NCBI RefSeq assembly: GCF_039523335.1
Contig: NZ_BAAAFC010000002.1
Coordinates: 248,001-312,000 of the forward strand
DNA from: Marinobacter szutsaonensis
Lineage (GTDB): Bacteria; Pseudomonadota; Gammaproteobacteria; Pseudomonadales; Oleiphilaceae
Reading direction: 5' to 3'
Length of the DNA stretch: 64,000 nt
Shown: positions 19,485-43,333 of the stretch, piece after piece
Position numbering within the stretch: the stretch's first letter is position 1
How the letters are laid out: every line of letters begins with the position of its first letter
Translations under genes and position numbers: made by a program
The notes under the pieces: model-generated
Databases searched by the model: none
The model's input: only the letters and a program-made list of their open reading frames with translations
Told to the model about the DNA's origin: nothing

Positions 19485-19599
19485 GGGAGCGGGTGGGAGA
19501 CGGTTTCTGAAACCCGCTCCTTCGGCACGTCCATGTGACGCTTGAGCTCCGCCATCCATGGCTCCGCACAGTTTCAAAAACCGTCTCCCACCCGCTCCC
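19485..19599. repeat. Long-arm hairpin element B1
   Basis: Left arm 19485-19513 and right arm 19571-19599 are 29 nt each and complementary at 28 positions. The 57-nt interior contains two smaller palindromes, CACGTCCATGTG and GCCATCCATGGC, separated by ACGCTTGAGCTCC. Elements at 19700 and 43222 share this core but have different arm sequences. It lies after the acyl-CoA dehydrogenase gene inside an apparent operon. Confidence 0.85.
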
Positions 19600-19699
19600 T
19601 TAAAGCTTGGGAGCATGCATTTAGGCAGAATTTAGAGCAGCGGTATCGAGCAGAATTCCGAAAATCTTGCAGGCTGATATAAGAGCTCGGGAGTCGGCG

Positions 19700-19794
19700 A
19701 TGGGACCTCCTTTCTGAAACCTTGCGGAGCCATGGATGGCGGAGCAGAGCGTACAGGGATGTATTCACAGCGTGTTTCAGAAAGGAAGTCCCAT
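19700..19794. repeat. Long-arm hairpin element B2 (inverted relative to B1)
   Basis: Left arm 19700-19720 and right arm 19774-19794 are 21 nt each with one mismatch. The interior, read on the minus strand, contains TACATCCCTGTA and GCCATCCATGGC in the same order as B1, so B2 is in the opposite orientation. B1 and B2 share a GTTTC-type inner arm end but differ outside it. It ends 53 nt before the SDR start. Confidence 0.85.
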
Positions 19795-19846
19795 TGACGG
19801 CTCTTCCACCTTTGTTGAAAACAAGAGAAACCAACGGATAAAAACG

Positions 19847-20668
19847 ATGACACAGAGAGTATTCATTACCGGCGGGGCCTCGGGCCTCGGTCGGGCAATC
19901 GCACTGCGTTACGCCAAAGAAGGCGCCAAAGTCTGCATCGGGGATATCAACCCGGACCAGGGTGCGGCCGTCGAGCAGGAGATCAATAAGGACGGCGGCG
20001 AAGGCTACTTTGTCGAATGCGATGTGCGCCGGCTGACGGATTTCGAGAAAGTTCGGGATGACCTGGAGAAGAAGTGGGGCGGTGTGGATGTTGTCGTGAA
20101 CAATGCTGGTGTGGCCTCCGCCGGGTCTATTGAAGACACCACCATGGCGGACTGGGAATGGATCCTGGACATCAACGTGCTGGGCGTGGTGCGTGGTTGC
20201 AAGGCGTTTACGCCGCTGTTCAAACAACAGGGCTCCGGGGCGTTTGTGAACGTGGCATCCATGGCCGGACTGATGCTGGCGCCGTTGATGGATAGCTACA
20301 ATGTTTCCAAGGCCGGGGTTATCGCCCTGTCCGAGACCCTGAGCCAGGAGCTGCGGGACGCTGGCATTCATGTCAGCTGCGTGTGCCCGGCGTTCTTCCA
20401 GACCAACCTGGCCAGTACCATGCGCTCGGATATTCCCGGCATCCAGCAGAACGTGAACAAGCTGATGAAGCGTTCCAGCATCACCGCCGAGGATGTGGCT
20501 GAGGACATTTTCCGCAGCGTGAAGGACAAGAGTTTCTGGGTGCTGCCTCATGCGAAAGAACGCCGGATGTGGGTGTTGAAGCGCCACGCGCCGTGGGCTT
20601 TTGACTGGCTGATGCATCAGGAGAGCAAGCGCTGGATGAACAAGATGGGCGACAAGGCCAACGCCTGA
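19847..20668 (+). CDS. SDR-family oxidoreductase
   Basis: 273 residues from the ATG at 19847. An upstream frame from 19736 runs through repeat B2 and is not credible. Classical SDR motifs are TGGASGLG (8-15) for NAD(P) binding, NNAGVA near 86 and the catalytic YNVSK near 151-155. A basic C-terminal extension (about 30 residues, KERRMWVLKRHAPWAF) is longer than in minimal SDRs. It is in line with the acyl-CoA dehydrogenase and kinase genes, so a hydroxyacyl or ketoacyl substrate is plausible. It may play the role of LvaD (ketone reduction), but that is inference. Confidence 0.8.
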   Translation: MTQRVFITGGASGLGRAIALRYAKEGAKVCIGDINPDQGAAVEQEINKDGGEGYFVECDVRRLTDFEKVRDDLEKKWGGVDVVVNNAGVASAGSIEDTTMADWEWILDINVLGVVRGCKAFTPLFKQQGSGAFVNVASMAGLMLAPLMDSYNVSKAGVIALSETLSQELRDAGIHVSCVCPAFFQTNLASTMRSDIPGIQQNVNKLMKRSSITAEDVAEDIFRSVKDKSFWVLPHAKERRMWVLKRHAPWAFDWLMHQESKRWMNKMGDKANA

Positions 20669-20698
20669 GTGGCCGGAACAGACCACAGGAGAAAGTGA

Positions 20699-21763
20699 AT
20701 GACTCAGATCGACCAGGCGGTGGATATCCGTGAGGGTGAGGAACTGGATATCGGCGCCGTCGACCGGTTCATGAAACACGCGATTCCGGGGCTGGAGGGC
20801 CAGCCCGCCATCAAGCAATACCCGGGTGGCGCCTCCAACCTGACCTATCAGGTGGATTACGGTGACCAGTCCTACGTGCTGCGCCGGCCACCGTTCGGGA
20901 AGATCGCCAAGTCCGCCCACGACATGCTCCGGGAAGCGCGGGTGATGCAGGCGCTGAAGCCGGTGTACCCGTACGTGCCGAATATTGTGGCCATCTGCGA
21001 CGATCATGACGTTCTGGGATGTGATTTCTACGTTATGGAGCGCCTGAAGGGCATTATCCTGCGCCAGGACTTCCCGAAGGATTTCGAGCTGAGCGAGGCC
21101 GATACCCGCAAGCTGTGCCTGAACGTGATCGACAAACTGGTGGATCTGCACCGGGTCGACGCCCAGGCCGCAGGTCTCTATGAGCTGGGCAAGGGCGCCG
21201 GTTACGTGCAACGCCAGATTGGCGGCTGGAGCGACCGCTTCCGCAAGGCACGCACCGAGGATGTGGGTGATTTCGAGGCGGTGATGAGCTGGCTCAACGA
21301 CAAGATGCCGGAAGATATCGCTCAGGTAGTCATCCACAACGACTACCGCTTCGACAACGTGGTGCTGAACCCGGACAACCCCTTCGAAGTCATCGGTGTG
21401 CTGGACTGGGAGATGGCCACCATCGGCGACCCGCTGATGGACCTGGGCAATAGCCTGGCCTACTGGATCGAGGCGGACGACGAGGGGCCGTTCCAGATGC
21501 TTCGGCGTCAGCCGACGCACCGGCCTGGCATGCTGACCCGCAAAGAAGTTGTCGACTACTACATGGAGAAGTCGGGTTTTCGTGCCGATAATTTCGACTT
21601 CTACGAAATCTACGGCCTGTTCCGGCTGGCGGTGATCATCCAGCAGATCTACTACCGCTTCTATCACGGCCAGACCAAGGACAAACGTTTCGCCGCCTTC
21701 GGCCACGCCGCCAATTACCTGGAGAAGCGTTGCCAGCGGCTGATCAGCGAGAGCACCCTGTAA
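20699..21763 (+). CDS. APH-like kinase of the ACAD10/LvaA type
   Basis: 354 residues with an aminoglycoside-phosphotransferase/kinase fold: GGASNLTYQV loop near 43, catalytic HNDYRFDN near 212 and the metal-binding DWEMATIGDP near 236. Proteins of this kind paired with an ACAD phosphorylate the hydroxyl of 4-hydroxyacyl-CoA (LvaA; the kinase domain of mammalian ACAD10/11), rather than an antibiotic. AGGAG precedes the ATG. Its TAA overlaps the next ATG (TAATG). I see no clear homologue of the small LvaB partner here. Confidence 0.85.
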   Translation: MTQIDQAVDIREGEELDIGAVDRFMKHAIPGLEGQPAIKQYPGGASNLTYQVDYGDQSYVLRRPPFGKIAKSAHDMLREARVMQALKPVYPYVPNIVAICDDHDVLGCDFYVMERLKGIILRQDFPKDFELSEADTRKLCLNVIDKLVDLHRVDAQAAGLYELGKGAGYVQRQIGGWSDRFRKARTEDVGDFEAVMSWLNDKMPEDIAQVVIHNDYRFDNVVLNPDNPFEVIGVLDWEMATIGDPLMDLGNSLAYWIEADDEGPFQMLRRQPTHRPGMLTRKEVVDYYMEKSGFRADNFDFYEIYGLFRLAVIIQQIYYRFYHGQTKDKRFAAFGHAANYLEKRCQRLISESTL

Positions 21764-22452
21764 TGGCGACTATCTATCTGATCCGACACGGCCAGGCCAG
21801 TTTTGGCAAGGACAACTATGACCAACTGTCGCCCAGGGGGTGGGAGCAGGGGCAGGTACTTGGCCGCTGGCTGGCGGGCAAAGTCACGCCCAACGCGGTG
21901 TTCGGTGGCAACATGGAGCGCCATCGGGAGACCGTTGAGGCCATCGCATCCGGGTTCGGCCAGGCGCTGCCGGATATGCAGGCGGTTGAAGGGCTGAACG
22001 AATTCGACCACATGCAGGTGGTCGAGCGACTGAAGCCGGAATGGGCGGATCGTCAGGTAATGGCCCGCGATATGGCCGCCTTTCCCAAGCCTGCGCGGTT
22101 GTTCCAGCAGGTGTTCGAGGAGGCCATGGCGCGCTGGATCAGCGGTGAGTATGACGCTGAATACGCCGAGAGCTGGGGTGCGTTTCAGGCGCGAGTCATT
22201 GCCGCGCTGGACGAACTGATTGGCTATGCCGACGGTGGCGATGTGCTGGTGTCCACTTCTGGCGGCCCGATTGCCGTCATTGCCCAGCACCTGCTGGCGC
22301 TCTCCGATGAGAAAGCGCTGGCGGTGAACAACGTCATCGCCAATACCAGCGTCTCCCGCATTCTCTATTCCGGCCCGCGCCGCAGCCTGGCCGTCTTTAA
22401 CAACTACAGCCACCTGGAGGCGGAAGATCCCGCCCTGGTGACATTCCGATAA
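21763..22452 (+). CDS. Histidine-phosphatase superfamily protein, second His missing
   Basis: 229 residues from the ATG at 21763 that overlaps the kinase stop. The phosphoenzyme motif LIRHGQASFG is intact and the acid residue region GLNEFDHMQV is present. The C-terminal motif that usually reads V-x-H-G-G reads VSTSGGPIAV, so the second catalytic His is Ser. Translational coupling to the kinase suggests a job in the same pathway, for example removing misplaced phosphates or damaged acyl-CoA products. A specialised subfamily is more likely than a decayed gene, since all other features are kept. Confidence 0.8.
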   Translation: MATIYLIRHGQASFGKDNYDQLSPRGWEQGQVLGRWLAGKVTPNAVFGGNMERHRETVEAIASGFGQALPDMQAVEGLNEFDHMQVVERLKPEWADRQVMARDMAAFPKPARLFQQVFEEAMARWISGEYDAEYAESWGAFQARVIAALDELIGYADGGDVLVSTSGGPIAVIAQHLLALSDEKALAVNNVIANTSVSRILYSGPRRSLAVFNNYSHLEAEDPALVTFR

Positions 22453-22469
22453 CGCATTAGGGGAAATCC

Positions 22470-23240
22470 ATGAGTACCAAGAACCTGTTCGATCTGTCCG
22501 GAAAGGTGGCCCTGGTCACCGGCGCCAGCCGTGGTATTGGCGAAAGCGTTGCCCGGACCCTCGCTCATTACGGAGCCCACGTCATCGTCAGCAGCCGCAA
22601 GATTGATGGCTGCGAGAAGGTGGCCAGCAGTATTCGTGACGAGGGCGGCAGCGCCGAAGCGGTTGCCTGCCATATCGGGGAAATGGACCAGATCGAGGCC
22701 ATCTGGGAGCATATCGACAAGGCACACGGCAAGCTGGACATTCTGGTCAACAATGCGGCCGCCAATCCTTATTTCGGACCGGTGGAGGACACTGACCTCG
22801 GCGCCTTCCAGAAGACCGTAGACGTGAACATCCGCGGCTATTTCTTCATGTGTGCACGCGGCGCCCAGATGATGAAGAAACATGGGGGCGGCGCGATCGT
22901 CAACGTGGCCTCCGTCAACGGCGTGAACCCTGGTCATTTCCAGGGTATCTACTCCGTTACCAAAGCGGCGGTGATTTCCATGACCAAGTCCTTTGCCATG
23001 GAACTGGGCCAGCAGAACATCCGCGTCAACGCATTGCTCCCGGGCCTGACCGATACCAAGTTCGCCAGCGCCCTGACCACCAACGAGGCGATCAAGAAGC
23101 AGGCCATGGCGCACATCCCGATGAAGCGCGTGGCGGATCCGGATGAGATGGCGGGTACGGTGCTTTATCTGGTGTCCGGGGCGTCCAGCTACACGACGGG
23201 GGCTTGCATTAACGCCGACGGTGGTTACCTGACCATTTGA
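22470..23240 (+). CDS. SDR-family oxidoreductase (second)
   Basis: 256 residues, typical size. Motifs: TGASRGIG (17-24), NNAAANPYFG near 92 and YSVTK near 161-165, ending in SYTTGACINADGGY as in FabG-like enzymes. It probably interconverts a hydroxyacyl and a ketoacyl thioester with NAD(P)H in the cytoplasm. It starts 17 nt after the phosphatase-like gene and ends the five-gene unit that begins with the acyl-CoA dehydrogenase. Four palindromes follow. Confidence 0.85.
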   Translation: MSTKNLFDLSGKVALVTGASRGIGESVARTLAHYGAHVIVSSRKIDGCEKVASSIRDEGGSAEAVACHIGEMDQIEAIWEHIDKAHGKLDILVNNAAANPYFGPVEDTDLGAFQKTVDVNIRGYFFMCARGAQMMKKHGGGAIVNVASVNGVNPGHFQGIYSVTKAAVISMTKSFAMELGQQNIRVNALLPGLTDTKFASALTTNEAIKKQAMAHIPMKRVADPDEMAGTVLYLVSGASSYTTGACINADGGYLTI

Positions 23241-23256
23241 TGGGGGCGGTGAAGTC

Positions 23257-23478
23257 GGGGTCAGAAGAAAGCTTTCTTCTGACCCCAAGTTACGGCTTAA
23301 CCTCATGGCAACGGGGTCTGATGAAAGCCTTCATCTGACCCCATGTTTGGGTTTCACCTCGAGCTTGGGCCATGAAAATGGGGTCAGATGAACAAGTTCA
23401 TCAGACCCCGGTGCCGCAGGCTTAACCTCGAGATTTGACTATGGAAACGGGGTCTGATGAAAGCCTTCATCTGACCCC
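23257..23478. repeat. Four REP-like 30-bp palindromes (family A)
   Basis: Units are 23257-23286 (perfect palindrome), 23313-23342, 23380-23409 and 23449-23478. The third has its own inner arms (GATGAAC/GTTCATC), showing compensatory change that keeps the stem. Spacers are 26, 37 and 39 nt, several containing TTAACCTC or CACCTCGAG-like remnants. The array fills the gap between the convergent SDR and lipoprotein genes. No cas genes are present and the units are palindromic, so this is not a CRISPR array. Confidence 0.9.
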
Positions 23479-23505
23479 AACTTCACGCCAACTCACAGTC
23501 ACCCC

Positions 23506-24381
23506 TCACGCCGGCGAACAGGTCAGCGCCCTGAAATCCCCCCGAAGCTCAACCGCCCGGGCTTCCAGATGCGCCAGATGCGAAGGTGCTCCGGCTTCAA
23601 TCAGCTCATACATCAGATCCGCCATTGCCACCCGGCTCTCGGCCATCATCTCCTTGTAGGCCTCTCCGCGGACCTCTTCCGAGTTCACCAACAAGGAGCG
23701 GATTCGCTCCCCGAAATTCGGCGAATCCCGCTCTTCTAGTGCATCCAGCAGCGCCAGCTGCCAATTCCGTCGGCCCTCCAGCCAGATCTCGGTCTGCCGG
23801 CCCCGGCTTTCCGACCACTCACGGGCAATTCGTTGTTGCCGGTTGTTCAGGGGGCCAAGCCAGTTTTCGATACGCTCCATCGTCCGCTCAGCCCGGGCTT
23901 CGGCTCGTGCCTCGGGAGAATCCAGCAGGAATTTCTCCTCCATCTCCCCATGGTTGCGGGCCATGTTCCTGGCAAGTTCGGCGACCTGCTCGTCGCTGAG
24001 CGAGGCGAGCATATTCGTGGCAGTCGGCGCGGCCTGCTCAAGTAACCCGGGCAGGAAGTCGAACAGTCGCTCCTGATGGTAGCTGACTTTTCCACGGTCC
24101 AGATCGCCCGACCGCGTGTCCCGGACCAGTTCATGCAGCCATTGGCGATAGCGGGGCAGTTCTGCCGTGCAGTGCCACTGCCGGAGGTTGTTGAGGTCCT
24201 TCGCCAGTTGCTGTTCCTGCTCGTTGGTCAGGGTTACGTAGTCGTCGACCCACCAGGTAACGCCCCAATCCGCGTACCGGTAAGCCGTGCGCGTTGAGCT
24301 GCAGGCCGAGAGTAACGCCAAAGTCAGGAGTAACGCAGTTGCTCGAATCATGGCGCTCGGCCGGTAGGCAAGAGAACTCAT
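23506..24381 (-). CDS. DUF6279-like lipoprotein
   Basis: 291 residues from the ATG at 24381, placed 7 nt after GAGG. A lipobox LLSACS puts the lipid-modified Cys near residue 27, after a short N-terminal extension. The mature part is highly helical and charged, with YADWGVTWWVDDYV after the anchor, long amphipathic stretches and WLGPLNNRQQ. This resembles DUF6279 lipoproteins of gammaproteobacteria, whose function is unknown. It is probably anchored to the outer membrane facing the periplasm. It is divergent from the small DUF2798 gene. Confidence 0.7.
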   Translation of the reverse strand: MSSLAYRPSAMIRATALLLTLALLSACSSTRTAYRYADWGVTWWVDDYVTLTNEQEQQLAKDLNNLRQWHCTAELPRYRQWLHELVRDTRSGDLDRGKVSYHQERLFDFLPGLLEQAAPTATNMLASLSDEQVAELARNMARNHGEMEEKFLLDSPEARAEARAERTMERIENWLGPLNNRQQRIAREWSESRGRQTEIWLEGRRNWQLALLDALEERDSPNFGERIRSLLVNSEEVRGEAYKEMMAESRVAMADLMYELIEAGAPSHLAHLEARAVELRGDFRALTCSPA

Positions 24382-24521
24382 CACGGTGCCTCAGCGTAAA
24401 GCCCAATGGAAAAACATTGCATGCTCATTATCATGCATTCCCTGTCATAGATATTACGAACCAGGGCCTGGAACGGATGGAGCCGGCAGAAGCTCGCCAC
24501 GCCCCAGGTTATGGAGATTCA

Positions 24522-24770
24522 ATGTCCAAGCAAAAGTTCGCACGTGTTCGCCAGTTTGTCTTTGCGTTTTACATGTCCGGCATCATGTCCCTGATGATGT
24601 CAGGGATCATCACGTTTATTAACACCGGGCTCATCGAGGGCTTCCTGGCGCGTTGGGGGCCCGCCTTTCTCGTGGCCTGGGGCTCGGCCTTTCCGCTGGT
24701 TATTTTCGTTGCTCCGCTTGCCGGGCGGCTGACGACACGAACACTTCGTGTGCTGGCGGATGAGCGCTAG
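24522..24770 (+). CDS. DUF2798 small membrane protein
   Basis: 82 residues from the ATG at 24522 with GGAG about 5 nt upstream; a longer frame starting at 24294 is not needed. It has two transmembrane segments (about 12-34 and 46-70) joined by a short loop, beginning MSKQKFARVRQF. The pattern fits the DUF2798 family of two-helix inner-membrane proteins of unknown function. Confidence 0.75.
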   Translation: MSKQKFARVRQFVFAFYMSGIMSLMMSGIITFINTGLIEGFLARWGPAFLVAWGSAFPLVIFVAPLAGRLTTRTLRVLADER

Positions 24771-24922
24771 CGTCCAGTCTTGTGAGTCCGGTTGTCAAAA
24801 ATTGTAAATCTGTTTGTTGCACCCATCCGTAGATTGTTTTGCGTACAGTTCATGGAATGAATCTGTGCAGGTTCGAACCATCAAACCCTGATCTGCAACC
24901 TCGGAATTGAGGATGAGTGACA

Positions 24923-26368
24923 ATGAAGACAAAATTTGCTTTGCCTTTGGTGGCGGCCAGTACTGTGTTGTTGGCCGGGTGTTTCGATGGTGACGACGAT
25001 CCGGCGAAAACCAGTGTCCGGGTCGTTCATGCGTCTTCTGACGCGCCAGCAGTCAATGTGCGTGTGAACAATCAAACGGTGGTCTCCGGCGCTGACTACA
25101 AGCAGGCCGCTGTGCTGACCCCGAATGCCGGTACAGCCTCGATAGCGGTTGATGGCATCTTGCCGGGTGGTGAGACCGCCACCGTGATTGATGCGGATGC
25201 TTCTCTTCGATTTGATACTAAATATGATGTGATTGCCGTGGGTAAGGTGGGGGACCAGACCATCGCCCCACTGATTCTTGCTGACGACGGCGAACGCGAA
25301 AGCGCTGATTCTGTCCGCCTTCGGGTCGCGCATTTGTCGCCCGACGCTCAGGAGGCCGCGGGCGGCCCAGTTGATGTCTATGTGACGGCGGCCGGTGCAG
25401 AACTTCCTGCCGAAGCTACCTTCTCGTTTGCTTTCCAGGAAAGCGTTGGCCCGCTGGAAGTCCCCGCGGGTGAGTATCAGATTCGGGTTACGCCTGCGGA
25501 TTCAAGCATAGTAGTTTATGACAGCGGTTCCGTGGCGTTGCCTGCAGGAGCAGATCTTCTGGTGGGCGCCATCGACAACACGGTTTATGGCGAGTCACCG
25601 ATCACTTTACTGGTCATCAATGGTAGTGAAACGAGTGAAATTCTGTCCGCCGAGACCGGAGCCGATCTTCGGGCCGTGCATAGCGTCTCCGATATTGGGT
25701 TTGGAAGAACAAACACTGCCGTTGACGTCTATCTCAATTCAGATCCCGGAACTGGCACACCGTTGACCTTCTCTTTCGGTGATACGCTTCCTGACATCGC
25801 CTTTACCGGCAACTACCTTCTCGGGGCACCCGGCGGCGCTGTTGGCGATTACGATCTGACCGTGACTGCTTCCGGAGACACCGCCGCAGCGATAGAAGCA
25901 ACTCTGACGCTGGCCGCAGGTGATCTCAGAACGGTAGTTGCCGCTGGCAGTGCCGACGCAGGCTTTGAAGCGCTGGTCTTCAGTGACGACAACCGCAGGA
26001 TTGCCACTGCTGCGAAGTTGCGCCTGATCCACGGTGCCGTCGAGGCAGCAACCGTAGATGTATACCTGGTGCCAACAGCTGAGGGTGGTGCCGATGCAAC
26101 GATGATTGGTAACCTTGCCGGATCGCCGACCGTCCCCGGCTTCGAGTACGGAGCCAGCACGGGTTATGTGCAGGTAGCTGACGGAAACTATGTGGCGTTT
26201 ATCACCGAGGCAGGCAATCCGGCGAACGTACTCTATAAATCACCAGATCTCGAGCTTTCAGCCGGCGGCATCTACACCGCGGTGGCTCGGCGAGCCCTGA
26301 GCGGCAGTGATCCTGTGGCTGGTGTTACCTTGATGGATGATTTCATCCCTGAACCGCAGCCGCAGTAA
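24923..26368 (+). CDS. DUF4397-repeat lipoprotein
   Basis: 481 residues from the ATG at 24923 (a GTG lies two codons earlier). Lipobox LLAGC, then an acidic linker FDGDDD that suggests export to the outer membrane. Four DUF4397-like repeats begin with VRVVHASSDAP, LRVAHLSPDAQ, LRAVHSVSDIG and LRLIHGAVEA, each followed by a DVYV/DVYL strand. Such beta-rich repeats occur in surface proteins; no enzymatic motif is visible. It is probably monocistronic, with a strong hairpin 25 nt after the stop. Confidence 0.8.
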   Translation: MKTKFALPLVAASTVLLAGCFDGDDDPAKTSVRVVHASSDAPAVNVRVNNQTVVSGADYKQAAVLTPNAGTASIAVDGILPGGETATVIDADASLRFDTKYDVIAVGKVGDQTIAPLILADDGERESADSVRLRVAHLSPDAQEAAGGPVDVYVTAAGAELPAEATFSFAFQESVGPLEVPAGEYQIRVTPADSSIVVYDSGSVALPAGADLLVGAIDNTVYGESPITLLVINGSETSEILSAETGADLRAVHSVSDIGFGRTNTAVDVYLNSDPGTGTPLTFSFGDTLPDIAFTGNYLLGAPGGAVGDYDLTVTASGDTAAAIEATLTLAAGDLRTVVAAGSADAGFEALVFSDDNRRIATAAKLRLIHGAVEAATVDVYLVPTAEGGADATMIGNLAGSPTVPGFEYGASTGYVQVADGNYVAFITEAGNPANVLYKSPDLELSAGGIYTAVARRALSGSDPVAGVTLMDDFIPEPQPQ

Positions 26369-26393
26369 ATGACTTTGTAGAGATGACTTACTC

Positions 26394-26418
26394 GAAGCCC
26401 CGGCATTGCCGGGGCTTC
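26394..26418. terminator. Bidirectional terminator hairpin
   Basis: GAAGCCCCGGC (26394-26404) and GCCGGGGCTTC (26408-26418) form a perfect 11-bp stem with an ATT loop. It lies between the convergent DUF4397 and dacB genes, 3 nt from the latter's stop. The T-rich flank on the plus side is weak. Confidence 0.75.
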
Positions 26419-26421
26419 CTG

Positions 26422-28002
26422 TTATTGAATGGTCACATTCGAGCTGTTCGAATCTGCCCGCGAAATCGCCGTCCCCGTAGGCGGCCGGTAATGCAGCGAG
26501 TAAAGCACCCGATCCAGCACCGATTTGCCATTCCACGCCGGGTCGTTGTTCACGATACCCACCACCGCCCAGGTGGTGTTGTTCTCGTCCCGGGTAAAGC
26601 CGGCAATCGAGCGAACATGCTCCAGGTAACCGGTCTTGATGCGGCCTGTGCCTTCCATGCCTGCTCGCTTCAGGCGGCGGGCCATGGTTCCGTCCATGGC
26701 GGTGATCGGCATGGAGGCCATCAGGTCGGAGGCGAACGGGCTGTTCCAGGCGTGCTGGAGGAGCTGAACACCCTGGCGGGCCGAAATGCGGCCATGACGG
26801 GTGAGGCCGGCCCCGTTGTCGATCACCATGCCAGCAGTATTGATGCCTTTGCTCTCAAGCCACTCGTAGATCACACGGATACCGGCTACGCGGTCATCCT
26901 GTTCGTCCTCTTTCCGGTTTTCGGCACCGATAGCGAGCAACATCTGGCGGGCCATGACGTTGCTGCTCCACTTGTTGATGTCCCGCACCATGGTGACCAG
27001 GTCCGGAGAGGTGGTTCTCATCACCAGCCGGGCATCGTCGGGGGTCTTGCCGGTCATGCTGGCGCCGCTGATGGTCACGCCGGTTTCCTTGAGGACTGAA
27101 CGAATCAGGGACGCGGTGTACTGCTCGTGGGGCAGCAGGGACATATAGGTGGTGGTCCGGCAGCCTTGTGGCAGTTCGCCCGTCACGCGCACGGTGACCT
27201 GCATGTTGTCGTCAAACACCGGCTCCCAGTTGAAATCACGGCGGCCGGGGCAGGGACCCTCGGGTATGGCGGTGACCCGGTTGTCGATCCGCACTTCGCT
27301 CAGGTCCGGCGTCGTCCAGGCCTGGGTCCCGCGCTCGTCAGCCCGGACCTGGAAGTGCAGCAGGTTGAGGTTGGTCAGGTAGGCCGAAGGCTCCACCAGG
27401 AACGGACGGTAGGGATTGTCGCCATTGTCCTCGAATTTCGGGAAGCCGCCATCCACGCGGAAATAGCTGCCATCCAGAACCAGGTGGCCGTCAATGCTGG
27501 TCACGCCCATTTGCCGGAGTTCACGCATGGTGGACCACAGGCGTTCGAGGGTCAGTTTCGGGTCGCCTTCGAAGCGGACATACAGGTTGCCCTTGAGTGT
27601 GTCGCCGACCATTTGCCCGTCGGTCAGGAAATCGGTATTCCAGTGGTGGGTCGGGCCGAGAATTTCCAGGGCCGCGTAGGTAGTCACCAGCTTCATGATG
27701 GAGCCGGGGCTCATCAGTTCGTCAGCGTTCACATACTGCTCGATCCCCGGACCATTGAGGGGGACCGCCGCAACGCTCAGGCCTTCCTTGTTGTTGAGGG
27801 CCTTGAAGGCGTAATCCCGGACTTCCGTGCTCCAGAGCCGGGTGGGGGAGTCTTCACTACCCGATTGCGCAGCTGCAGCCAGCGGGAAACCCGCAGCCAT
27901 GACCGCGGCAATTCCTGCAGACAACATGAACCGACAGCTGGACCTCCTCAGTCCTGCCTGCCTGACGCTGCGTCGCATGACCCTGATCTTCATGATTTCC
28001 AT
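26422..28002 (-). CDS. dacB: D-alanyl-D-alanine carboxypeptidase/endopeptidase (PBP4)
   Basis: 526 residues with an N-terminal signal (hydrophobic segment about 25-45 ending AAAAQ). The three penicillin-binding motifs of peptidase family S13 are present: S-x-x-K as SIMK (S101, K104), S-x-N as SSN near 347, and KTG near 456 (GRIKTGYL). The large insertion between the first two motifs is typical of PBP4/DacB. It trims or cleaves peptidoglycan cross-links in the periplasm. A slightly long N terminus makes the start uncertain by a few codons. Confidence 0.9.
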   Translation of the reverse strand: MEIMKIRVMRRSVRQAGLRRSSCRFMLSAGIAAVMAAGFPLAAAAQSGSEDSPTRLWSTEVRDYAFKALNNKEGLSVAAVPLNGPGIEQYVNADELMSPGSIMKLVTTYAALEILGPTHHWNTDFLTDGQMVGDTLKGNLYVRFEGDPKLTLERLWSTMRELRQMGVTSIDGHLVLDGSYFRVDGGFPKFEDNGDNPYRPFLVEPSAYLTNLNLLHFQVRADERGTQAWTTPDLSEVRIDNRVTAIPEGPCPGRRDFNWEPVFDDNMQVTVRVTGELPQGCRTTTYMSLLPHEQYTASLIRSVLKETGVTISGASMTGKTPDDARLVMRTTSPDLVTMVRDINKWSSNVMARQMLLAIGAENRKEDEQDDRVAGIRVIYEWLESKGINTAGMVIDNGAGLTRHGRISARQGVQLLQHAWNSPFASDLMASMPITAMDGTMARRLKRAGMEGTGRIKTGYLEHVRSIAGFTRDENNTTWAVVGIVNNDPAWNGKSVLDRVLYSLHYRPPTGTAISRADSNSSNVTIQ

Positions 28003-32536: not shown

Positions 32537-32539
32537 GGG

Positions 32540-36099: not shown

Positions 36100-36126
36100 C
36101 ATCGCCAAGTTAAGGGAGGAAGGGGC

Positions 36127-36237: not shown

Positions 36238-37006
36238 GTGCGGCCATCCGCTCCTTACGATACACACCACACGTGCCGCAATAGCCGCCCTCCGGTAACA
36301 GGTATTTCAGGCAACAGCCCTTACGCTGAGGGATTGCCGTTTTCTGTTCTGCAAACACCGCCGGAATCCAGTCGATGAATCGATTGGCGTCATTCCTGAA
36401 TGCTTCCAGCCATTGCTGCGCGAGATTACACACAGAGGTGGGGTCGGCGAGATTCCACACCGCCGAGAAAGGCGCGCCCAGACCCAGGCCGACACTGCTC
36501 CAGTAGGCGCCGGGGCTAACCCCCAGTTGCTGCCTGAACACCGGATACCAGGCTTCCGTTTGTGCTGCCATACCGTGCCGGAAAACCTGTTCGCTTGCCA
36601 TTGGCTGGCCCGGAGTCTGGAACCATCGTGAAACGGTCTGTCCCGCCTTCTCGATGGGCGCCAGGAAGATTCGGGCCGGATTGGCAACGGGCGCCTCGCC
36701 ATAGCGGAACAGACGTAATGTGAGGGGAGCAAGCACACTGAGCGCCAGATCCTGCTGCAGTACCGACGCATAAGCCCGGACGGCTTTACGATCCTCGGCA
36801 TCGGGGTAATCCCGACCGATCTGCTGCACGAGCAACTCGGGCTGCTCGAGGCATTGGGCCAGGGAAAACAGGCCCCGGCGTTCCTGTGCCGGAGCTTTCA
36901 GAGACTGCGCGAGGATAGCTTCGCGGTCGAGACCGGAGACTTGCAGGAGCCGATCATAACGATCGACCCAGCGCTCGCCATTTGTTTCAGATTCAGGCGC
37001 GACCAT
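36185..37006 (-). CDS. fhuF: Siderophore-iron reductase FhuF-like
   Basis: 273 residues from the ATG at 37006; the longer frame to 37129 reads through fhuB. The C terminus has the FhuF 2Fe-2S ligand pattern: CC (in RKGCCLKYLLPE), then ten residues, then CGTC. FhuF reduces ferric hydroxamates in the cytoplasm to release iron. It overlaps the fhuB stop by 14 nt and is the last gene of the fhuCDBF-type operon. Confidence 0.85.
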   Translation of the reverse strand: MVAPESETNGERWVDRYDRLLQVSGLDREAILAQSLKAPAQERRGLFSLAQCLEQPELLVQQIGRDYPDAEDRKAVRAYASVLQQDLALSVLAPLTLRLFRYGEAPVANPARIFLAPIEKAGQTVSRWFQTPGQPMASEQVFRHGMAAQTEAWYPVFRQQLGVSPGAYWSSVGLGLGAPFSAVWNLADPTSVCNLAQQWLEAFRNDANRFIDWIPAVFAEQKTAIPQRKGCCLKYLLPEGGYCGTCGVYRKERMAALSQPGHCPTPGQWQPAR

Positions 37007-39023
37007 GGCGGCTGAGCCCCCAGAGGAAATAGATCCCGCCCACCAGGGCAGCCAGCAGACCGGCGGGCAATTGGTTGGGATACACGACAATGCGGGACAG
37101 GTAATCCGCCACACCGAGCAGCACGCCACCGACCAGAGCGGCGGCGATCAGCTGCCGGCCGACGGTCTGCTGGCCCAGCACCCGGGCCAGGTGCGGAGCG
37201 ATCAGGCCGACGAAGCTGAGTGGGCCGATCACCACTGTGGCGGCCGCGGTCAGCAGCGCTGCCAGAAGCAGCAGTAAGAGGCGAACCCGGGCCACCGGAA
37301 GACCCAGTGAGGAGGCCGACTGCTCGCCCAGTGGCAAGATAGTCAGGGGCCGTACGACCGAGGCCAGAGCTCCGGAAATCACCAGCATGAACACCAGCAA
37401 TCCGATGGCTTCCCCTTCGGACACCAGCCAGGTAGAGCCATACATCCAGTTCAGCAACTTGGAGGCCTCGGTCCCGCCGGAGGCCATCACCAGGCGAAGT
37501 CCAGCATCCATGAACACGTACAGGGCGAGGCCGCCAAGCAGTAACTGGTTGCCGGCAAAGCGGTGTCGCCGCGCCAGCAGAATCAGCAGGCCCAGGGCCC
37601 CAGCCGCGCCGGCGGTGGCTGCCACCAGTTGCCCCGCGCGCCCTGCCTCAATGCCAGAGAGCACAATGACCACCATCACCAGGGCAGCCCCGCCGCTGAT
37701 GCCCAGCATTTCCGGGCTGCCCATGGGGTTGCCGGTCATTCGCTGGATCAGGGTACCGGCCAGGCCGAGGGCGATGCCAGCGAGGACCGCAGCGAGCATC
37801 CGCGGGCCACGCCAGACCCAGGCCTCGTCCCATTGGGAAACGCTGGTCCAGCGCCAGCCGTCGAGGCTCGGCGACCAGCCCATGGAAATAACGACCGTAA
37901 TCAGTAGAAGCCCGGTGAGCACGGCTGAAACCAGCAGGATCGGGCGGCGTTTGGGCAGGAAGCCGGCCGGGCTGGAGGTTTGCCCCGGCATGTGATGGGT
38001 ATTCCGGAAGCCCTGCAGGGCCAGCAGGATGATCGGCCCGCCAATCAGGGCGGTGGTGGTGCCGGTGGGAATCAGGGAACCGTCGCCCCAGGTGGAGGCC
38101 CAATGGGCCAGGGTGTCTGCCAGTAACAGCAGACCACCGCCGAGCAGGGTGCTCCACAGCATGCGCCCCCCGACAGTGCGGGCGCCCAGAAGCCGGGCCA
38201 GTACCGGCGCGGCAAGCCCGACAAAGGCAATTACGCCAACCCGGCTCACTACCGTCGCGCTCAGCAGAACCACAAGGAACAGAGCCAGCGCCCGTACCCA
38301 CGCCACTTTTGCACCCAGGGAGCTGGCCGAGGTCTCTCCCAGTTGGAGCAACTGCAGTGGCCGCATCAACAACAGCATCAGGGCTGCCAGGATCAGGACC
38401 CTGGGCCAGAGATCCGTGAATGGCTGCCAATTGTTCTGGACCAGGGAGCCGGCACCCCAGATGAACAGGTTGCCCAGCCACTCGCCCTTGAGCAGCAGGA
38501 ACGCCATATTGGTGGCGCCAAGGAAGAAGGTGATCACTAGGCCGGCGAGGATCACGGTGACCGGGGAAAAGCCCAGCCGCCAGGTCAGGGCGATGACCAT
38601 GGCAATGGCCAGCAGGCCGCCGGCAATGGCAGGCAGGTCCGGGCTGAAGGCGAGCAGGCCCGGGAAAAACAGCGATGCGACAGTGACGCCGAACTGGCTC
38701 CCGGCGGCAACACCGAGGGTGGTCGGCGAGGCCAGCGGGTTGCCGAGGATCTGCTGGGTCACGGCACCGGCCAGCCCCAGCGCCGCGCCGACCAGAACGG
38801 CCATGGCCACCCTGGGTGCCCAGCTGAAGTGCGCCAGCACCGACGCATAGGTATCCGGGTTGAAGGTCCAGAAAGCACTCAGCAAGGCCATCGGATCCAG
38901 TTGCTGAAGCCAGGGCAGGGCGCTGGCCAGCAGAGCGGTCAGCCAGAGGATGGCTGCGGTTACCGGCAAACGGGCGGGAAGCACCGGGCTCTGTGCGGGG
39001 AGGGTGGTGGTATTACTGTACAT
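36993..39023 (-). CDS. fhuB: Ferric hydroxamate ABC permease FhuB (fused double permease)
   Basis: 676 residues from the ATG at 39023 with GGAGG 8 nt upstream. Two BtuC-type permease halves are fused, as in E. coli FhuB: the first half has GAVTQQILGNPLASPTTLG (about 85-105), the second repeats it as GTLIQRMTGNPMGSPEMLG (about 420-440). About 18-20 transmembrane helices are expected. It starts inside the end of the fhuD-like gene (11-nt overlap) and its own end overlaps the fhuF-like start. Confidence 0.95.
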   Translation of the reverse strand: MYSNTTTLPAQSPVLPARLPVTAAILWLTALLASALPWLQQLDPMALLSAFWTFNPDTYASVLAHFSWAPRVAMAVLVGAALGLAGAVTQQILGNPLASPTTLGVAAGSQFGVTVASLFFPGLLAFSPDLPAIAGGLLAIAMVIALTWRLGFSPVTVILAGLVITFFLGATNMAFLLLKGEWLGNLFIWGAGSLVQNNWQPFTDLWPRVLILAALMLLLMRPLQLLQLGETSASSLGAKVAWVRALALFLVVLLSATVVSRVGVIAFVGLAAPVLARLLGARTVGGRMLWSTLLGGGLLLLADTLAHWASTWGDGSLIPTGTTTALIGGPIILLALQGFRNTHHMPGQTSSPAGFLPKRRPILLVSAVLTGLLLITVVISMGWSPSLDGWRWTSVSQWDEAWVWRGPRMLAAVLAGIALGLAGTLIQRMTGNPMGSPEMLGISGGAALVMVVIVLSGIEAGRAGQLVAATAGAAGALGLLILLARRHRFAGNQLLLGGLALYVFMDAGLRLVMASGGTEASKLLNWMYGSTWLVSEGEAIGLLVFMLVISGALASVVRPLTILPLGEQSASSLGLPVARVRLLLLLLAALLTAAATVVIGPLSFVGLIAPHLARVLGQQTVGRQLIAAALVGGVLLGVADYLSRIVVYPNQLPAGLLAALVGGIYFLWGLSRHGRA

Positions 39024-39945
39024 TATCGGAGCCTCCCGCCAGCAGACTGTCGGTAATCTGTGTGGCCAGCCGCTTGACCGGGTAGATGCCACCGAAAGGC
39101 CAGGTGGCTTCCACCTGGTAAACCTGGCCCCGTTGCACCGCCGGCAGGTAGGTCCAGAAGGGACTGTCGGCGAGGGTATCAGCCAGCCCTGGCGGTGTCG
39201 GGGATATCACGATAAGCCGGGCCTCGCGAAACGGCGCAATCGCTTCCAGACCGACCACGGAAAACCCCCAGAAATTACCCGGGTGGGGCCAGGCGTTGTT
39301 CAGCCCGAGGGCGTCTAGTGCGGTCTGATAGAGTCCGTTCGGGGCGTAGATACGCACATGCCGGGCGTCGAGGAAGTTCACCAGCGCGGCCGGTCGCTCC
39401 GTGACACCCGCTTCGGCAAGTCGCTTCCGCTGGTTGGCGAGGGTCTGCTCGATATCCTCCACCACCTCTTGTGCGCGTGCTTCCCGACCCAGCATTTCGC
39501 CGAGGGTGAACAGCATCTTGCGGGCCTTGGCAAAGGGTTGCGAACCTTCCTTGTACACACTGACCACATAAGTGGGGGCCAGTCGTTCAAGCAGGTCGGC
39601 AGCGGGGGCCATTTCGGCGCTGGTCACGATCAGGTCCGGCTTCAGCTCGGCAATAGCTTCCAGACTGGGCGCTACGCGGGTGCCGACATTGCGCACACCG
39701 CTTTCCGGCAGCGCTGGTTCTCTGACCCAATGGCTGTAACCCGCCAGATCGGCCACCCCCACGGGGGTGACCCCGAGCAATAGCAACGCCTCGGTGGTGG
39801 CCCAGTTGAGGGCGACGATGCGTTCGGGAACCTTGTCCAGGGTGAGGGTGCCGTTCTCGTGCTGCCAGGTACCCGCGGTGGCGGGCATGGCGAGTGTGCT
39901 TAACAGGAGAAAGAGGCCAGCCAGCCCCGCGGATTTAATGCACAT
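39013..39945 (-). CDS. fhuD: Ferric hydroxamate-binding protein FhuD-like
   Basis: 310 residues with a Sec signal (cleavage near PATAG at about 24). It is a class-III periplasmic binding protein: ERIVALNWATTEALLLLGV, then APSLEAIAELKPDLIV, and a C-terminal lobe with GLEAIAPFREARLIVIS. It captures a ferric siderophore and delivers it to FhuB. Start and end overlap fhuC and fhuB by 11 nt each, implying coupled translation. Confidence 0.9.
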   Translation of the reverse strand: MCIKSAGLAGLFLLLSTLAMPATAGTWQHENGTLTLDKVPERIVALNWATTEALLLLGVTPVGVADLAGYSHWVREPALPESGVRNVGTRVAPSLEAIAELKPDLIVTSAEMAPAADLLERLAPTYVVSVYKEGSQPFAKARKMLFTLGEMLGREARAQEVVEDIEQTLANQRKRLAEAGVTERPAALVNFLDARHVRIYAPNGLYQTALDALGLNNAWPHPGNFWGFSVVGLEAIAPFREARLIVISPTPPGLADTLADSPFWTYLPAVQRGQVYQVEATWPFGGIYPVKRLATQITDSLLAGGSDNVQ

Positions 39946-40708
39946 AGGAAACCCACTGCCCCGGAGCCCGCTCCATCACACCCATGGGTACGCCATAAAT
40001 GGTTTCCAGGATGCCGGAATCCATGATGTCGTCGGGACGGCCATCGGCTACCAACCGGCCGGCCTTGATAGCCACCAGGCGGTCGCAGAAGCGGGCGGCA
40101 AGGTCTACGTCGTGCAGCACCACAATGACGGTCAGCTCCCGTTGCTCGGCCAGGCGATGCACCAGGCGCAGGGTTTCCACCTGGTGTTTCACATCCAGTG
40201 CGGAAATGGGTTCGTCCAGGAGCAGGCACCGGGTCTGCTGGGCCAGCAGCATGGCGATCCACGCCCGCTGGCGCTCGCCGCCGGAAAGGGTATCCACGGA
40301 GCGATGGGTGAACGGTTCCAGGGCGGTGTCGGCAATGGCCTGGTCGATCAGTCGGTGGTCTTCCCGGTTATAACGGCCGAGCGGCCCCCGCCAGGGGTAA
40401 CGACCGAGAGCAACCAACTCCCGAACCGTAAGCCCGTCCGTGCCGGGTGGATGCTGGGGCAGGTAGCCGACAGTACGGGCAAACTCCCGTGCACCAGTGT
40501 TGCGAAAGGCCTGGCCGAGCAGGCTGACGTTGCCCTCCGAGGGGGCCTGGTGCCGGGCCAGCACCTTGAGCAGGGTCGACTTGCCGGAACCGTTGTGGCC
40601 CAGAAGGGCAGTGACTTCTCCTTCCTGAAAACCGATGTGGATATTGCGAAGAATAGGTGTGTCACCGATACGGACACCCAGGCTGGATATTTCGAAGAAC
40701 GCCGACAT
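39935..40708 (-). CDS. fhuC: Ferric siderophore ABC ATPase FhuC-like
   Basis: 257 residues. Walker A GHNGSGKST (37-45), signature LSGGERQR near 141, Walker B CLLLDEPISALD near 160 and the switch His in VLHDVDLA. It is the first gene of the coupled operon for hydroxamate uptake. A candidate Fur box lies 36 nt upstream of the ATG. Confidence 0.9.
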   Translation of the reverse strand: MSAFFEISSLGVRIGDTPILRNIHIGFQEGEVTALLGHNGSGKSTLLKVLARHQAPSEGNVSLLGQAFRNTGAREFARTVGYLPQHPPGTDGLTVRELVALGRYPWRGPLGRYNREDHRLIDQAIADTALEPFTHRSVDTLSGGERQRAWIAMLLAQQTRCLLLDEPISALDVKHQVETLRLVHRLAEQRELTVIVVLHDVDLAARFCDRLVAIKAGRLVADGRPDDIMDSGILETIYGVPMGVMERAPGQWVSYVH

Positions 40709-40743
40709 GCAGACTCCCTTGTTCTGAGAGTCTGCAGGTTAAT

Positions 40744-40762
40744 CTAAATACGAATTACTATC
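40744..40762 (-). promoter_or_regulatory. Candidate Fur box upstream of the fhuC-like gene
   Basis: CTAAATACGAATTACTATC (plus strand) matches the 19-bp Fur consensus at 11 positions by hand count and is embedded in an AT-rich stretch (40741-40772). It lies between the fhuC start and the end of the upstream ABC exporter gene, so iron control of the operon is plausible. The match is moderate. Confidence 0.4.
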
Positions 40763-40785
40763 AATTATGATGTTGGGTTTGACGT

Positions 40786-42576
40786 TCAGACTTGCCCGGT
40801 CTGGACGCGCCATTGAGCCCGGTAGGCTCCGTCCTTCGACAGCAGGGTTTCGTGGTTGTCCTGCTCGACGACCCGGCCGTTCTCGATCACCGCAATGGTA
40901 TCCGCATCCACGATGGTGGACAGGCGGTGGGCAATCATGATCACCGTGCGGTTGTGGCCGATCCGGCGCAGGGAGCGCTGGATGGCTGCCTCGGTTTCGT
41001 TGTCCACCGCGCTCGTGGCCTCGTCCAGCACCAGGATCGGCGGGTTCTTCAGCAGGGCACGGGCCAGGGAGAGGCGCTGGCGCTGGCCACCGGACAACCG
41101 GACACCACGCTCGCCCACCGGCGTATCGAGGCCCTCGGGCAAGGCCTCGATGAAGCTCCAGGCCTCGGCGGTTTTTGCGGCCTCGATGATTTCCGCATCG
41201 GTGGCATCGGGCTTGCCGTAGGCCAGATTCTCGCGGATGGAACCCTCGAACAGGTACACATCCTGGCTGACCAGTCCGATGGCGCCGCGCAGGGACTTGA
41301 GGTTGATGTCCCGGATCGGCTGACCATCGATGCGGATCTCGCCGTGGCTCGGGTCGTAGAAGCGCAACAGCAGCTTGATCAGAGTGGACTTGCCGGAACC
41401 GGTGGCGCCCACCAGGGCCAGGGTGTTGCCGGCCGGAACGTTCAGGCTGATGTCCCGGATGCCGGCGCCGCTGGAGGGGTAGTGGAAGCTGAGGTTGCGG
41501 AAATCCACCTCACCCTTTACCGGCCGGGCGAGGTCCTTGCCGCCTTCGTCCCGAACGTGGACCGGTTCGGCGAGCAGGTTCAGGATGCGCCGGGTGCTGG
41601 CCATGGCGCGTTCGAACAGGTCGATGACTTCCGCGAGACCGGTCAGCGGCCAGAGCAGGCGCTGGGTGAGGAAGACCAGGACGCCATAGGCGCCCACATT
41701 GAGGGTGCCTTCCAGGGCCATCATGCCGCCGACGGTAAAGGTGGCGAGGAAGCCGGCGAGGATGGCCATGCGGATGACCGGAATGAACGCGGAACTGATG
41801 CGGATGGCCCTGCGATTAGCATCCACATACGCCTCACTGCTGGCCTTGAGCCGCTCTGCCTCCCGCTGCTCGGCGGTAAAGCTCTTGATGGTGGCAATGC
41901 CGCCGAGGTTGTTGGCCAGTCGGCTGGACAGGTCGCCTACCTTTTCACGAACGTCGGCATACAGGGGGCCGGCCTTGCGCTGGAAGTAGAAAGCGCCCCA
42001 GATAATCAGCGGAATCGGTGTAAAGGCCAACAGGGCCACGGTGGGCGAAATCACGAAGAATACGGCGCCGACGGCCACCACAGTGACCAGTACCTGGATC
42101 ATGGCGTTGGCGCCCCCATCGAGGAAGCGTTCGAGCTGGTTGACGTCGTCGTTCATGGTGGCCACCAGCTGGCCGGAGCTGCGCGCCTCGAAGAAGCTCA
42201 TGTCCAGGCGCTGGGCGTGCTCGTAGGCGTCCTGGCGCAGGTCGGATTGCAGGCGCTGGGCGAGGTTGCGCCAGAGTATCTGGAACAGGTATTCGAACAG
42301 GGATTCCCCAGCCCAGATGAAGAAGGTCAGTACCGCGAGGATGGTGATCTGTTCCCGGGCGGTCTCGAAGCCGAGCCCGGCGACGAAGCTCTGTTCCTGG
42401 TTCACCACCACGTCGATGGCGACACCGATCAGGATCTCCGGGGCGATGTCGAAGAGTTTGTTGATGATGGAGCAGGTGGTGGCGGCAATGATCCGGCGGC
42501 GGTAGCCGCGGGCGTATCTCAAGAGCCGGGCGAGGGCGGCGAAGCTGCTGGTGTTGGTGTGACTGCTGGTGGACAT
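40786..42576 (-). CDS. ABC exporter, fused permease-ATPase (siderophore export candidate)
   Basis: 596 residues: a six-helix type-I exporter domain (about 20-320) and a C-terminal ATPase with Walker A GATGSGKST near 392, RLSGGQRQRLSLARALL, and Walker B ILVLDEATSAVD. The family includes lipid A flippases, peptide exporters and siderophore exporters. A Fur-like site upstream and the fhu operon downstream suggest a role in iron acquisition, such as siderophore export. No siderophore synthetase lies in the window, so this is inferred. Confidence 0.85.
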   Translation of the reverse strand: MSTSSHTNTSSFAALARLLRYARGYRRRIIAATTCSIINKLFDIAPEILIGVAIDVVVNQEQSFVAGLGFETAREQITILAVLTFFIWAGESLFEYLFQILWRNLAQRLQSDLRQDAYEHAQRLDMSFFEARSSGQLVATMNDDVNQLERFLDGGANAMIQVLVTVVAVGAVFFVISPTVALLAFTPIPLIIWGAFYFQRKAGPLYADVREKVGDLSSRLANNLGGIATIKSFTAEQREAERLKASSEAYVDANRRAIRISSAFIPVIRMAILAGFLATFTVGGMMALEGTLNVGAYGVLVFLTQRLLWPLTGLAEVIDLFERAMASTRRILNLLAEPVHVRDEGGKDLARPVKGEVDFRNLSFHYPSSGAGIRDISLNVPAGNTLALVGATGSGKSTLIKLLLRFYDPSHGEIRIDGQPIRDINLKSLRGAIGLVSQDVYLFEGSIRENLAYGKPDATDAEIIEAAKTAEAWSFIEALPEGLDTPVGERGVRLSGGQRQRLSLARALLKNPPILVLDEATSAVDNETEAAIQRSLRRIGHNRTVIMIAHRLSTIVDADTIAVIENGRVVEQDNHETLLSKDGAYRAQWRVQTGQV

Positions 42577-42644
42577 TTCCGCTTTCTCCCAGATGTTTGG
42601 CCCGGTTTGGATTGGGCAGGGAGGTTAGCGGAAATGCCGGGAAA

Positions 42645-42663
42645 TTAAAATAGAATCATTATC
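42645..42663 (-). promoter_or_regulatory. Candidate Fur box upstream of the ABC exporter
   Basis: TTAAAATAGAATCATTATC matches the Fur consensus at 13 of 19 positions by hand count, including an exact CATTATC half. It is about 70 nt upstream of the exporter ATG and touches the stop codon of the upstream gene. It is the best of the three Fur-like sites here. Confidence 0.6.
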
Positions 42664-43114
42664 ATCTTCTGACGTTGCGCTGTAGCCACCGGTCCAGTTG
42701 ATCGGCGAATTCCTTGCGGTCGGTCTGGCTGAACGGGGCGGGGCCGCCGGTAACCTGGCCGGCGCTGCGCATTTCTTCCATGAAGTTGCGCATGGCCAGG
42801 CGCTGGCGAATATTTTCTTTGGTGAAGGCCTGGCCCCGGGGGTTGAAGACGTCGGCGCCTTTTTCGATAGCCTCGGCGGCCAGGGGGATGTCCTGGGTGA
42901 TGACGAGGTCGCCTTTGGTCATCTGGTCCATGATTTCGTTGTCAGCGACGTCGAAGCCGTGGGGGACCTGGCGGCGGCTGATGTAGGGGCTCGGCGGCAG
43001 GCTGATGGCGTGGTTGGCGATGAAGGTGGTCTGGATTTGCCAGCGGGTGGCGGCGCGGCAGAGGATTTCCCGGATGGGGACGGGGCAGGCGTCGGCGTCG
43101 ACCCAGATTGGCAT
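42662..43114 (-). CDS. YaiI/YqxD family (DUF188) protein
   Basis: 150 residues, full length. It begins with the family signature MPIWVDADACPVP, followed by DNEIMDQMTKGDLVITQDIPLA and NPRGQAFTKENI. The fold is PIN-like with conserved acidic residues, suggesting nuclease-type chemistry, but the function is unproven. Its end overlaps a Fur-like site serving the next gene, so the exporter is probably expressed separately. Confidence 0.9.
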   Translation of the reverse strand: MPIWVDADACPVPIREILCRAATRWQIQTTFIANHAISLPPSPYISRRQVPHGFDVADNEIMDQMTKGDLVITQDIPLAAEAIEKGADVFNPRGQAFTKENIRQRLAMRNFMEEMRSAGQVTGGPAPFSQTDRKEFADQLDRWLQRNVRR

Positions 43115-43221
43115 TTCGTTTTTCCTTTGGTGTTGGTTTCAAGGCTAGAGTTTAACTGTTCTGGGATTGAGCTTGTTAGTGGTTGGCCGCGTATTTCTCC
43201 TAGCCTGCGATGGTTGGAGCA

Positions 43222-43333
43222 GGGCGGCTTTGGGGCGAGCCACCCAAAAACCGCTACGAGCACGTCCATGTGCGCTTGTTTCAGGCCATCCATGGCCTTC
43301 AACATTTTTGGGAGGCTCACCCCAAAGCCACCC
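43222..43333. repeat. Long-arm hairpin element B3
   Basis: Left arm 43222-43250 and right arm 43305-43333 are 29 nt with three mismatches. The arms are unrelated in sequence to those of B1 and B2. The interior has CACGTCCATGTG, CGCTTG and GCCATCCATGGC in the same order as B1. It sits in the divergent gap between the YaiI gene and a histidine phosphatase gene, ending about 30 nt before the latter's ribosome site. Confidence 0.85.

Follow-up and report, generated by a model that had tools for sequence, protein, structure and literature searches.

Three palindromic elements lie in the 64,000-nucleotide stretch of Marinobacter szutsaonensis DNA analysed here (the window), and their arms differ in sequence from one element to the next while each pair stays self-complementary around a common core. 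This raises the question of whether the elements belong to a wider family, and of which strand, as RNA or as DNA, the complementarity serves.

Structure of the three elements in the window

The elements are palindromes of 112–115 nt, with arms of 29–30 nt and a core of 53–57 nt carrying two hairpins:

19485–19599, plus strand: element 1, top orientation (R1 model, 110.2 bits)
19485–19513, plus strand: left arm of element 1, 29 nt
19526–19537, plus strand: hairpin 1 of element 1, with CATGGACG around the loop on the reverse strand
19551–19562, plus strand: hairpin 2 of element 1, with CATGGATG around the loop on the reverse strand
19571–19599, plus strand: right arm of element 1, 29 nt, 1 mismatch against the left arm
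19691–19803, minus strand: element 2, facing element 1 (R1 model, 96.5 bits at 19692–19802)
19691–19720, minus strand: arm of element 2 (right arm in element orientation), 30 nt
19729–19740, minus strand: hairpin 2 of element 2
19751–19762, plus strand: hairpin 1 of element 2, on the reverse strand GTACAGGGATGT, an exact CsrA SELEX consensus (RUACARGGAUGU)
19774–19803, minus strand: other arm of element 2, 30 nt, 4 mismatches against its partner
43222–43333, plus strand: element 3 (R1 model, 109.1 bits)
43222–43250, plus strand: left arm of element 3, 29 nt
43260–43273, plus strand: hairpin 1 of element 3
43285–43296, plus strand: hairpin 2 of element 3
43305–43333, plus strand: right arm of element 3, 29 nt, 3 mismatches against the left arm

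The initial annotation had placed the arms of elements 1 and 3 correctly and counted one to three mismatches per arm pair, which holds for these two; element 2 proved longer than annotated, with 30-nt arms, and has four mismatches. The two inner palindromes and their CGCT linkers, described at the same time, are present in the window elements. Elements 1 and 2 do lie in inversion, facing each other, between an acyl-CoA dehydrogenase gene (ending at 19438) and an SDR gene (starting at 19847). Element 3 lies between divergent genes, one encoding a DUF188 protein on the minus strand and the other a histidine-phosphatase family protein (starting at 43380). All six strands of the three elements folded better than each of 200 shuffles, both as DNA (z −4.9 to −10.2) and as RNA (z −6.1 to −9.5). 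The window also contains a second, clustered palindromic repeat family, GGGGTCAGATGAA...TTCATCTGACCCC, at 1019–1121, 4945–5104 and 23249–23485, with a partial copy at 49741–49767.

A multi-copy family in Marinobacter and beyond

The further copies of the core that the initial annotation expected were readily found. The 3.96-Mb genome contains 62 copies of the core sequence CCATCCATGG and 7 of the reversed control, so its recurrence is not due to chance. By our own arm score, arms flank 44 of the 62 sites, a count that includes one element twice and scores at least two further elements too low. A covariance model built from 51 copies returned 96 raw matches in this genome at E ≤ 0.001; removing 8 opposite-strand repeats and 3 partial matches, which are long-core copies, leaves 85 full-length copies.

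The family was present in all 19 Marinobacter genomes searched, with 3 to 127 raw matches each, and in 3 of 10 genomes from other families of the order. Across the gammaproteobacteria its distribution is patchy: 48 of 276 genomes have it (a count that includes this one), belonging to 44 of 216 genera. These class-wide counts are lower bounds owing to stricter filters and to the scoring of only 13 candidates per genome. The family is real: multi-copy, patchy, with a homologous core and with positions common to several species.

Relationship to known repeats

The core is homologous to that of the Yersinia repeat RU-2/YPAL, whose sequence is printed in the available part of PMC2759123. Aligned with the RU-2 sequence, element 2 scored 60 against a shuffled maximum of 32 and element 1 scored 42 against 34, while element 3 was barely above its maximum (30 against 29). 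Twenty of 39 distant cores were compared with RU-2 in the same way; 16 scored 49–72 and 4 scored 28–37. Both kinds of repeat are intergenic and multi-copy, with a homologous core and two inner hairpins. YPAL, as far as the accessible text of PMC2229807 and PMC2759123 describes it, is recently mobile, lies in or beside dyad symmetry and is a single 168-bp sequence with internal repeats and 3–26 bp target duplications, whereas the arms of our elements are near-perfect and unlike between copies, which makes the elements relatives of YPAL rather than YPAL copies. The RF02770 model of Ysr224, which the part of PMC9029176 at hand presents as a temperature-responsive Yersinia sRNA and among the most frequent annotations, matched the top strand in 6 of the 20 distant loci, always below its cut-off, and gave no match in this genome at E ≤ 0.001. 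Kinship with YPAL/RU-2, and with the Rfam motif TwoAYGGAY considered below, is well supported.

These relationships bear on the suggestion that the elements are MITE-like. It comes close, in that the core is that of a published mobile repeat and in that one distant genome (G129) carries a burst of near-identical copies: the arms were identical in 13 of the 16 copies read, with two more slightly different, and the copies (L343–L355) lie within repeats of up to ~370 bp, mostly on short contigs. This burst is a possible place to look for a mobilising partner. Terminal repeats common to the copies were not found, and a conventional MITE, which needs them, is unsupported because the outer arms are only about 40% identical between copies. 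REP elements are likewise palindromic and intergenic, and REP repeats often occur in inverted pairs. RAYT-type mobility is unsupported, as copy number showed no evident link to the number of Y1 transposases: four genomes (G001, G005, G008 and G009) have no Y1 transposase yet 65–102 raw matches, and another (G004) has 22 transposases and 7 matches. This genome contains one Y1_Tnp match. Integron attC sites, a further candidate, come with an integrase and have conserved outer R boxes, a layout opposite to the free arms and conserved centre seen here, and nothing observed spoke for integron-like sites.

Free arms around a fixed core

The arms (~29 bp, element-specific in sequence) flank a conserved core of two small hairpins, and arm likeness does not follow core likeness. 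Where two elements share at least 97% of the core (41 pairs), their outer arms were 43% identical, the same as in pairs with diverged cores (51 copies, leaving out 4 long-core copies). Among the 51 elements, both sides had changed in 28 of 29 arm pairs, and still 96.5% of the cells pair, with G-U in only 3 arm cells. The same division holds class-wide. This was read from 39 matches, taken from 20 class-wide loci and from 10 of the 30 retrieved in three other families of the order: the arm columns are without consensus (mean majority frequency, 0.41), whereas CGC-GT-AA, GCT and the TCC in each loop persist in the core. The unpaired junction bases CGC, GT, AA and GCT are conserved nearly as well as the loops. 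Pairing of the outer flanks was weak (9.92 versus 9.59, s.d. 0.19). We rejected the borrowing of arms from other copies, since a single non-orthologous pair in the genome stands out (0.94; next, 0.78). Our literature search returned no report of a family of this size, of arms whose complementarity outlasts their sequence, or of the one-strand mismatch bias described below.

At the site after the acyl-CoA dehydrogenase gene (site A), element 1 was found in all of the first 20 genomes read, one of them with a deletion hybrid. In 20 further genomes, chosen mostly for a BLAST match broken there, element 1 was present in 11 (one a hybrid and one a long-core copy), the second element alone in 3 and neither in 6. 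By eye, several absences of the second element look like deletions, the outer arm end seemingly being kept in these genomes, and none of the sites read was cleanly empty. The alignment for this site comprised 29 first elements, this genome's among them; the long-core copy and both hybrids were set aside. Both sides had changed in 23 of 29 arm pairs, and 92.9% of arm cells pair, against 39–49% when the arms are slid. Arms at an orthologous locus have thus changed on both sides and still pair, which, together with the 28 of 29 pairs among copies, upholds the initial annotation's view of a repeat family with a conserved core and element-specific, covarying arms. The refutation test set in that annotation is thereby passed. 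We regard the family and its structural upkeep as well supported.

Several site A copies are irregular. In genome G029 (L086), the left arm is identical to that of G001 and the right arm differs, which looks like a recent hybrid with its breakpoint in the core. Two others (L265, L256) comprise one copy with a different insert in hairpin 2 and one from which hairpin 2 was lost between GCTCCGC repeats. A module of ~83 nt with three small hairpins lies inside hairpin 1 at six loci (L036:2080–2273, L038:6189–6383, L115, L122, L143 and L170). At a second site (site B), the arms of G033 and G009 are identical or almost so, as are those of G045 and G055, with one of each pair carrying the extra ~83-nt module; such orthologues without it suggest that the module is inserted or lost cleanly. 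Perfect arms of ~35 bp, longer than those of Marinobacter elements, belong to an element of G281 (L335, 1001–1110).

The rate of arm change was estimated against M. pelagius 114J (G002), in which 34 of 40 elements examined, out of 105 raw matches listed, have an orthologue in this genome; two of the 34 assignments may be crossed, as two neighbouring elements look exchanged (L146). Arm-pair identity across these orthologues ranged from 0.35 to 1.00, and in 12 of the 34 arm likeness was at most 0.55, within the range of unrelated copies (mean 0.39, 95% at 0.55). The changed pairs comprised 74 compensated transitions, 89 compensated transversions and 36 uncompensated changes. Divergence between the two genomes is 0.178 at third codon positions, which were located by periodicity, and mean arm-pair change was 0.293, against ~0.32 expected from two neutral sites. 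The arms therefore drift at about the neutral rate yet remain paired, and this ordinary mean rate led us to reject wholesale arm replacement or hypermutation. The spread of arm change between loci is five times binomial, for which recombination between species would be our guess. When each of 25 site A sequences was compared with its nearest neighbour, 38 changes were uncompensated and 27 compensated (a reciprocal pair counts twice), so the path runs through mismatches, stepwise rather than by copied tracts.

Bottom-strand loops resemble CsrA/RsmA sites

At the gathering score, Rfam returned nothing in the window. In a permissive scan, the reverse strand of element 1 matched RF01731 (TwoAYGGAY) with 42.0 bits, below the cut-off of 43, and element 2 matched on the plus strand with 21.5 bits. 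With 66 of 209 candidates scored, this genome gave 13 matches to RF01731 at E ≤ 0.001, all on the bottom strand of the element, and none of the 13 reached the cut-off (best, 42.0). Matches above the cut-off occurred in 7 of 29 genomes, this one not among them, and the bottom strand matched in 3 of 20 distant loci, one above the cut-off. When compared directly, our elements and TwoAYGGAY were found to share the strand and two AYGGAY-type hairpin loops within an outer stem; they differ in that the score here is below the 43-bit gathering cut-off and that the elements form a high-copy repeat, which the available text on TwoAYGGAY does not describe. That text reports the motif from human gut, gammaproteobacteria and Clostridiales, and classes it as a probable RNA that is unlikely to be cis-regulatory (PMC2864571, in part). 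CsrA binding has already been proposed for it, according to the accessible section of PMC4333381, and RF01731 and CsrB share the Rfam clan CL00106. The initial annotation mentioned neither this RNA-motif likeness nor the one-sided mismatches described below.

On the bottom strand, ANGGAY stands at hairpin 2 in 83 and at hairpin 1 in 84 of the 85 copies, and class-wide in 33 and 35 of the 39 matches, respectively. The paired ANGGAN hexaloops are closed by a stem and lie 23–25 nt apart in the 82 copies in which our script found both. The excerpted text of PMC7652899 gives the CsrA SELEX consensus as RUACARGGAUGU, mostly in six-base loops, and 2 of the 85 copies match it exactly. The bottom-strand loops thus resemble CsrA/RsmA sites, and binding, like transcription and mobility of the elements, is putative. 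As in CsrA sponges of the CsrB/RsmZ type, GGA stands in hexaloops and the sites are paired; unlike in these sponges, there are two sites per unit, the units are scattered over 85 loci, and a simple scan showed no promoter. A decentralised CsrA/RsmA sponge, in which ~85 two-site units spread as a repeat, are kept in the bottom-strand fold by selection at each locus and set the level of free CsrA through their number in each species (3 to 127 raw matches), is a speculative extension that we consider rather improbable. Conservation of the junction bases exceeds what a plain CsrA site needs, which weighs against the CsrA reading.

csrA was present in 29 of 29 genomes, with a single copy in this one, and the family ranges from 3 to 127 raw matches although 18 of the 19 Marinobacter genomes have one csrA and the remaining one has three. 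Such copy numbers, the patchy class-wide spread and the burst in G129 are what plain selfish repeats without host function would produce, their complementarity being a residue of insertion. Compensated arm changes at fixed orthologous sites, however, need upkeep after insertion, and we consider this explanation very improbable.

Mismatch bias toward one strand

Mismatches occupy 85 of the 2210 arm cells in the full-length set of 85 copies; read on the top strand, they comprise 47 A-C, 5 G-T, 28 C-T/C-C, 4 A-A/G-A and 1 T-T. A-C and C-T/C-C on the top strand correspond to G-U, G-A and G-G on the bottom strand, so that the leftover mismatches favour folding of the reverse (bottom) strand (STATISTICALLY). 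They do so whatever the direction of neighbouring genes: A-C exceeds G-T both where the top strand is sense (12 to 0) and where the bottom strand is sense (9 to 4). Selection through the host mRNA is therefore unsupported. A symmetric aligner applied to 101 elements of two genomes gave A-C versus G-T counts of 51 to 6. In a pool of 156 elements from this and other Marinobacter genomes the counts were 88 to 22 at positions 4–29, and 70 to 6 without near-duplicates and elements with more than six mismatches. The bias was small in the 61 pool elements from Marinobacter genomes other than these two when all positions and hybrids were included (51 A-C, 36 G-T), and the distant families gave 15 to 8.

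The bias is compatible with a second explanation, in which it is single-stranded bottom-strand DNA whose folding matters, either as the substrate of a mobilising enzyme or through template switching at replication forks that copies arm to arm; arm complementarity would then be maintained at the DNA level instead of through selection on RNA. Independence of gene direction fits this explanation, as does the burst of near-identical copies in G129. G-A and G-G are retained no less readily than G-T, which agrees with the stability order of DNA mismatches, and their persistence is about that of mutation alone (47 to 28, against 2769 to 1802 transitions to transversions in the flanks). Compensated changes in 20 diverged orthologous pairs are likewise not enriched in transitions (70 to 85, against the same flanks). 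RNA helices usually hold more G-U pairs than these arms, and with few G-U and persisting G-A/G-G, folded DNA or strand-biased mutation fits as well as or better than RNA; strand-biased mutation rather than selection may underlie the bias. The stepwise changes at site A, by contrast, are not those of copied tracts, the Rfam RNA model fits, no enzyme was found, and searches of 72,556 plasmid and 50,697 phage records gave no match to the core at the E-values applied. We consider a role for folded DNA possible, with the odds clearly against it.

Placement relative to genes

Placement was assessed with our own codon-score gene calls, on which the positions relative to genes rest. The 63 single elements comprise 16 top-sense and 15 bottom-sense copies between same-direction genes, 14 flanked by convergent genes, 10 flanked by divergent genes, and 8 inside a called gene or beside only one. 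Between same-direction genes, the median distance after the nearest stop codon is 29 nt for top-sense and 27 nt for bottom-sense elements. Divergent genes flank 10 of the 76 copies that have a called gene on either side, compared with 28 of the 115 intergenic gaps that measure 100 nt or more. Neighbouring elements less than 400 nt apart face each other in 11 of 11 pairs, at 51–165 nt, while of seven neighbours 400–1500 nt apart four face each other and three face away. A simple scan of the flanks revealed no promoter-like pattern beside the elements, and this, together with the lack of orientation preference, weighs against a bottom-strand RNA.

Another possible explanation is that of hairpins at the 3′ ends of genes: the long stem, alike on either strand, would stabilise or terminate the mRNA of the gene just before it, and the loops would be leftovers. 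The short distances behind the stop codon in both orientations alike, and the few copies between divergent genes, are as this account predicts. It parallels the role proposed for YPAL, which the available part of PMC2229807 ties to upstream genes and perhaps to RNA stability. An mRNA stability role, already raised by the initial annotation, is thus possible given the proximity to stop codons (~30 nt), yet the elements occur in either orientation. Against orientation-neutral hairpins stand the mismatch strand bias and the class-wide pattern, in which loops and junction bases are most conserved and arms are without consensus, and we find this account unlikely.

A repeat family with a proposed role for the folded bottom strand

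We favour the reading, with a probability of roughly 0.6, that the elements form one class-wide interspersed palindromic repeat family, catalogued so far as YPAL/RU-2 and as TwoAYGGAY, whose working unit is the folded bottom strand. That strand, most likely as RNA, would form a three-way junction of a ~29-bp stem and two hairpins with ANGGAY loops 23–25 nt apart, which could hold one CsrA/RsmA dimer. The family would have spread by copying and now be mostly old in Marinobacter, its fold kept by selection and its copies lost by deletion. Copies behind genes would act as hairpins close to the ends of mRNAs and, when in one of the two orientations, as putative CsrA-binding sites dispersed over the genome.

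The family links a mobile DNA repeat to an RNA motif listed separately until now, and the Rfam cut-off misses it here, with no match above it in the window or among the 66 of 209 candidates scored in the genome. Its dozens of matched loci provide a natural record of compensated arm evolution. If the loops do bind CsrA, the repeat would be a scattered sink of a global regulator.
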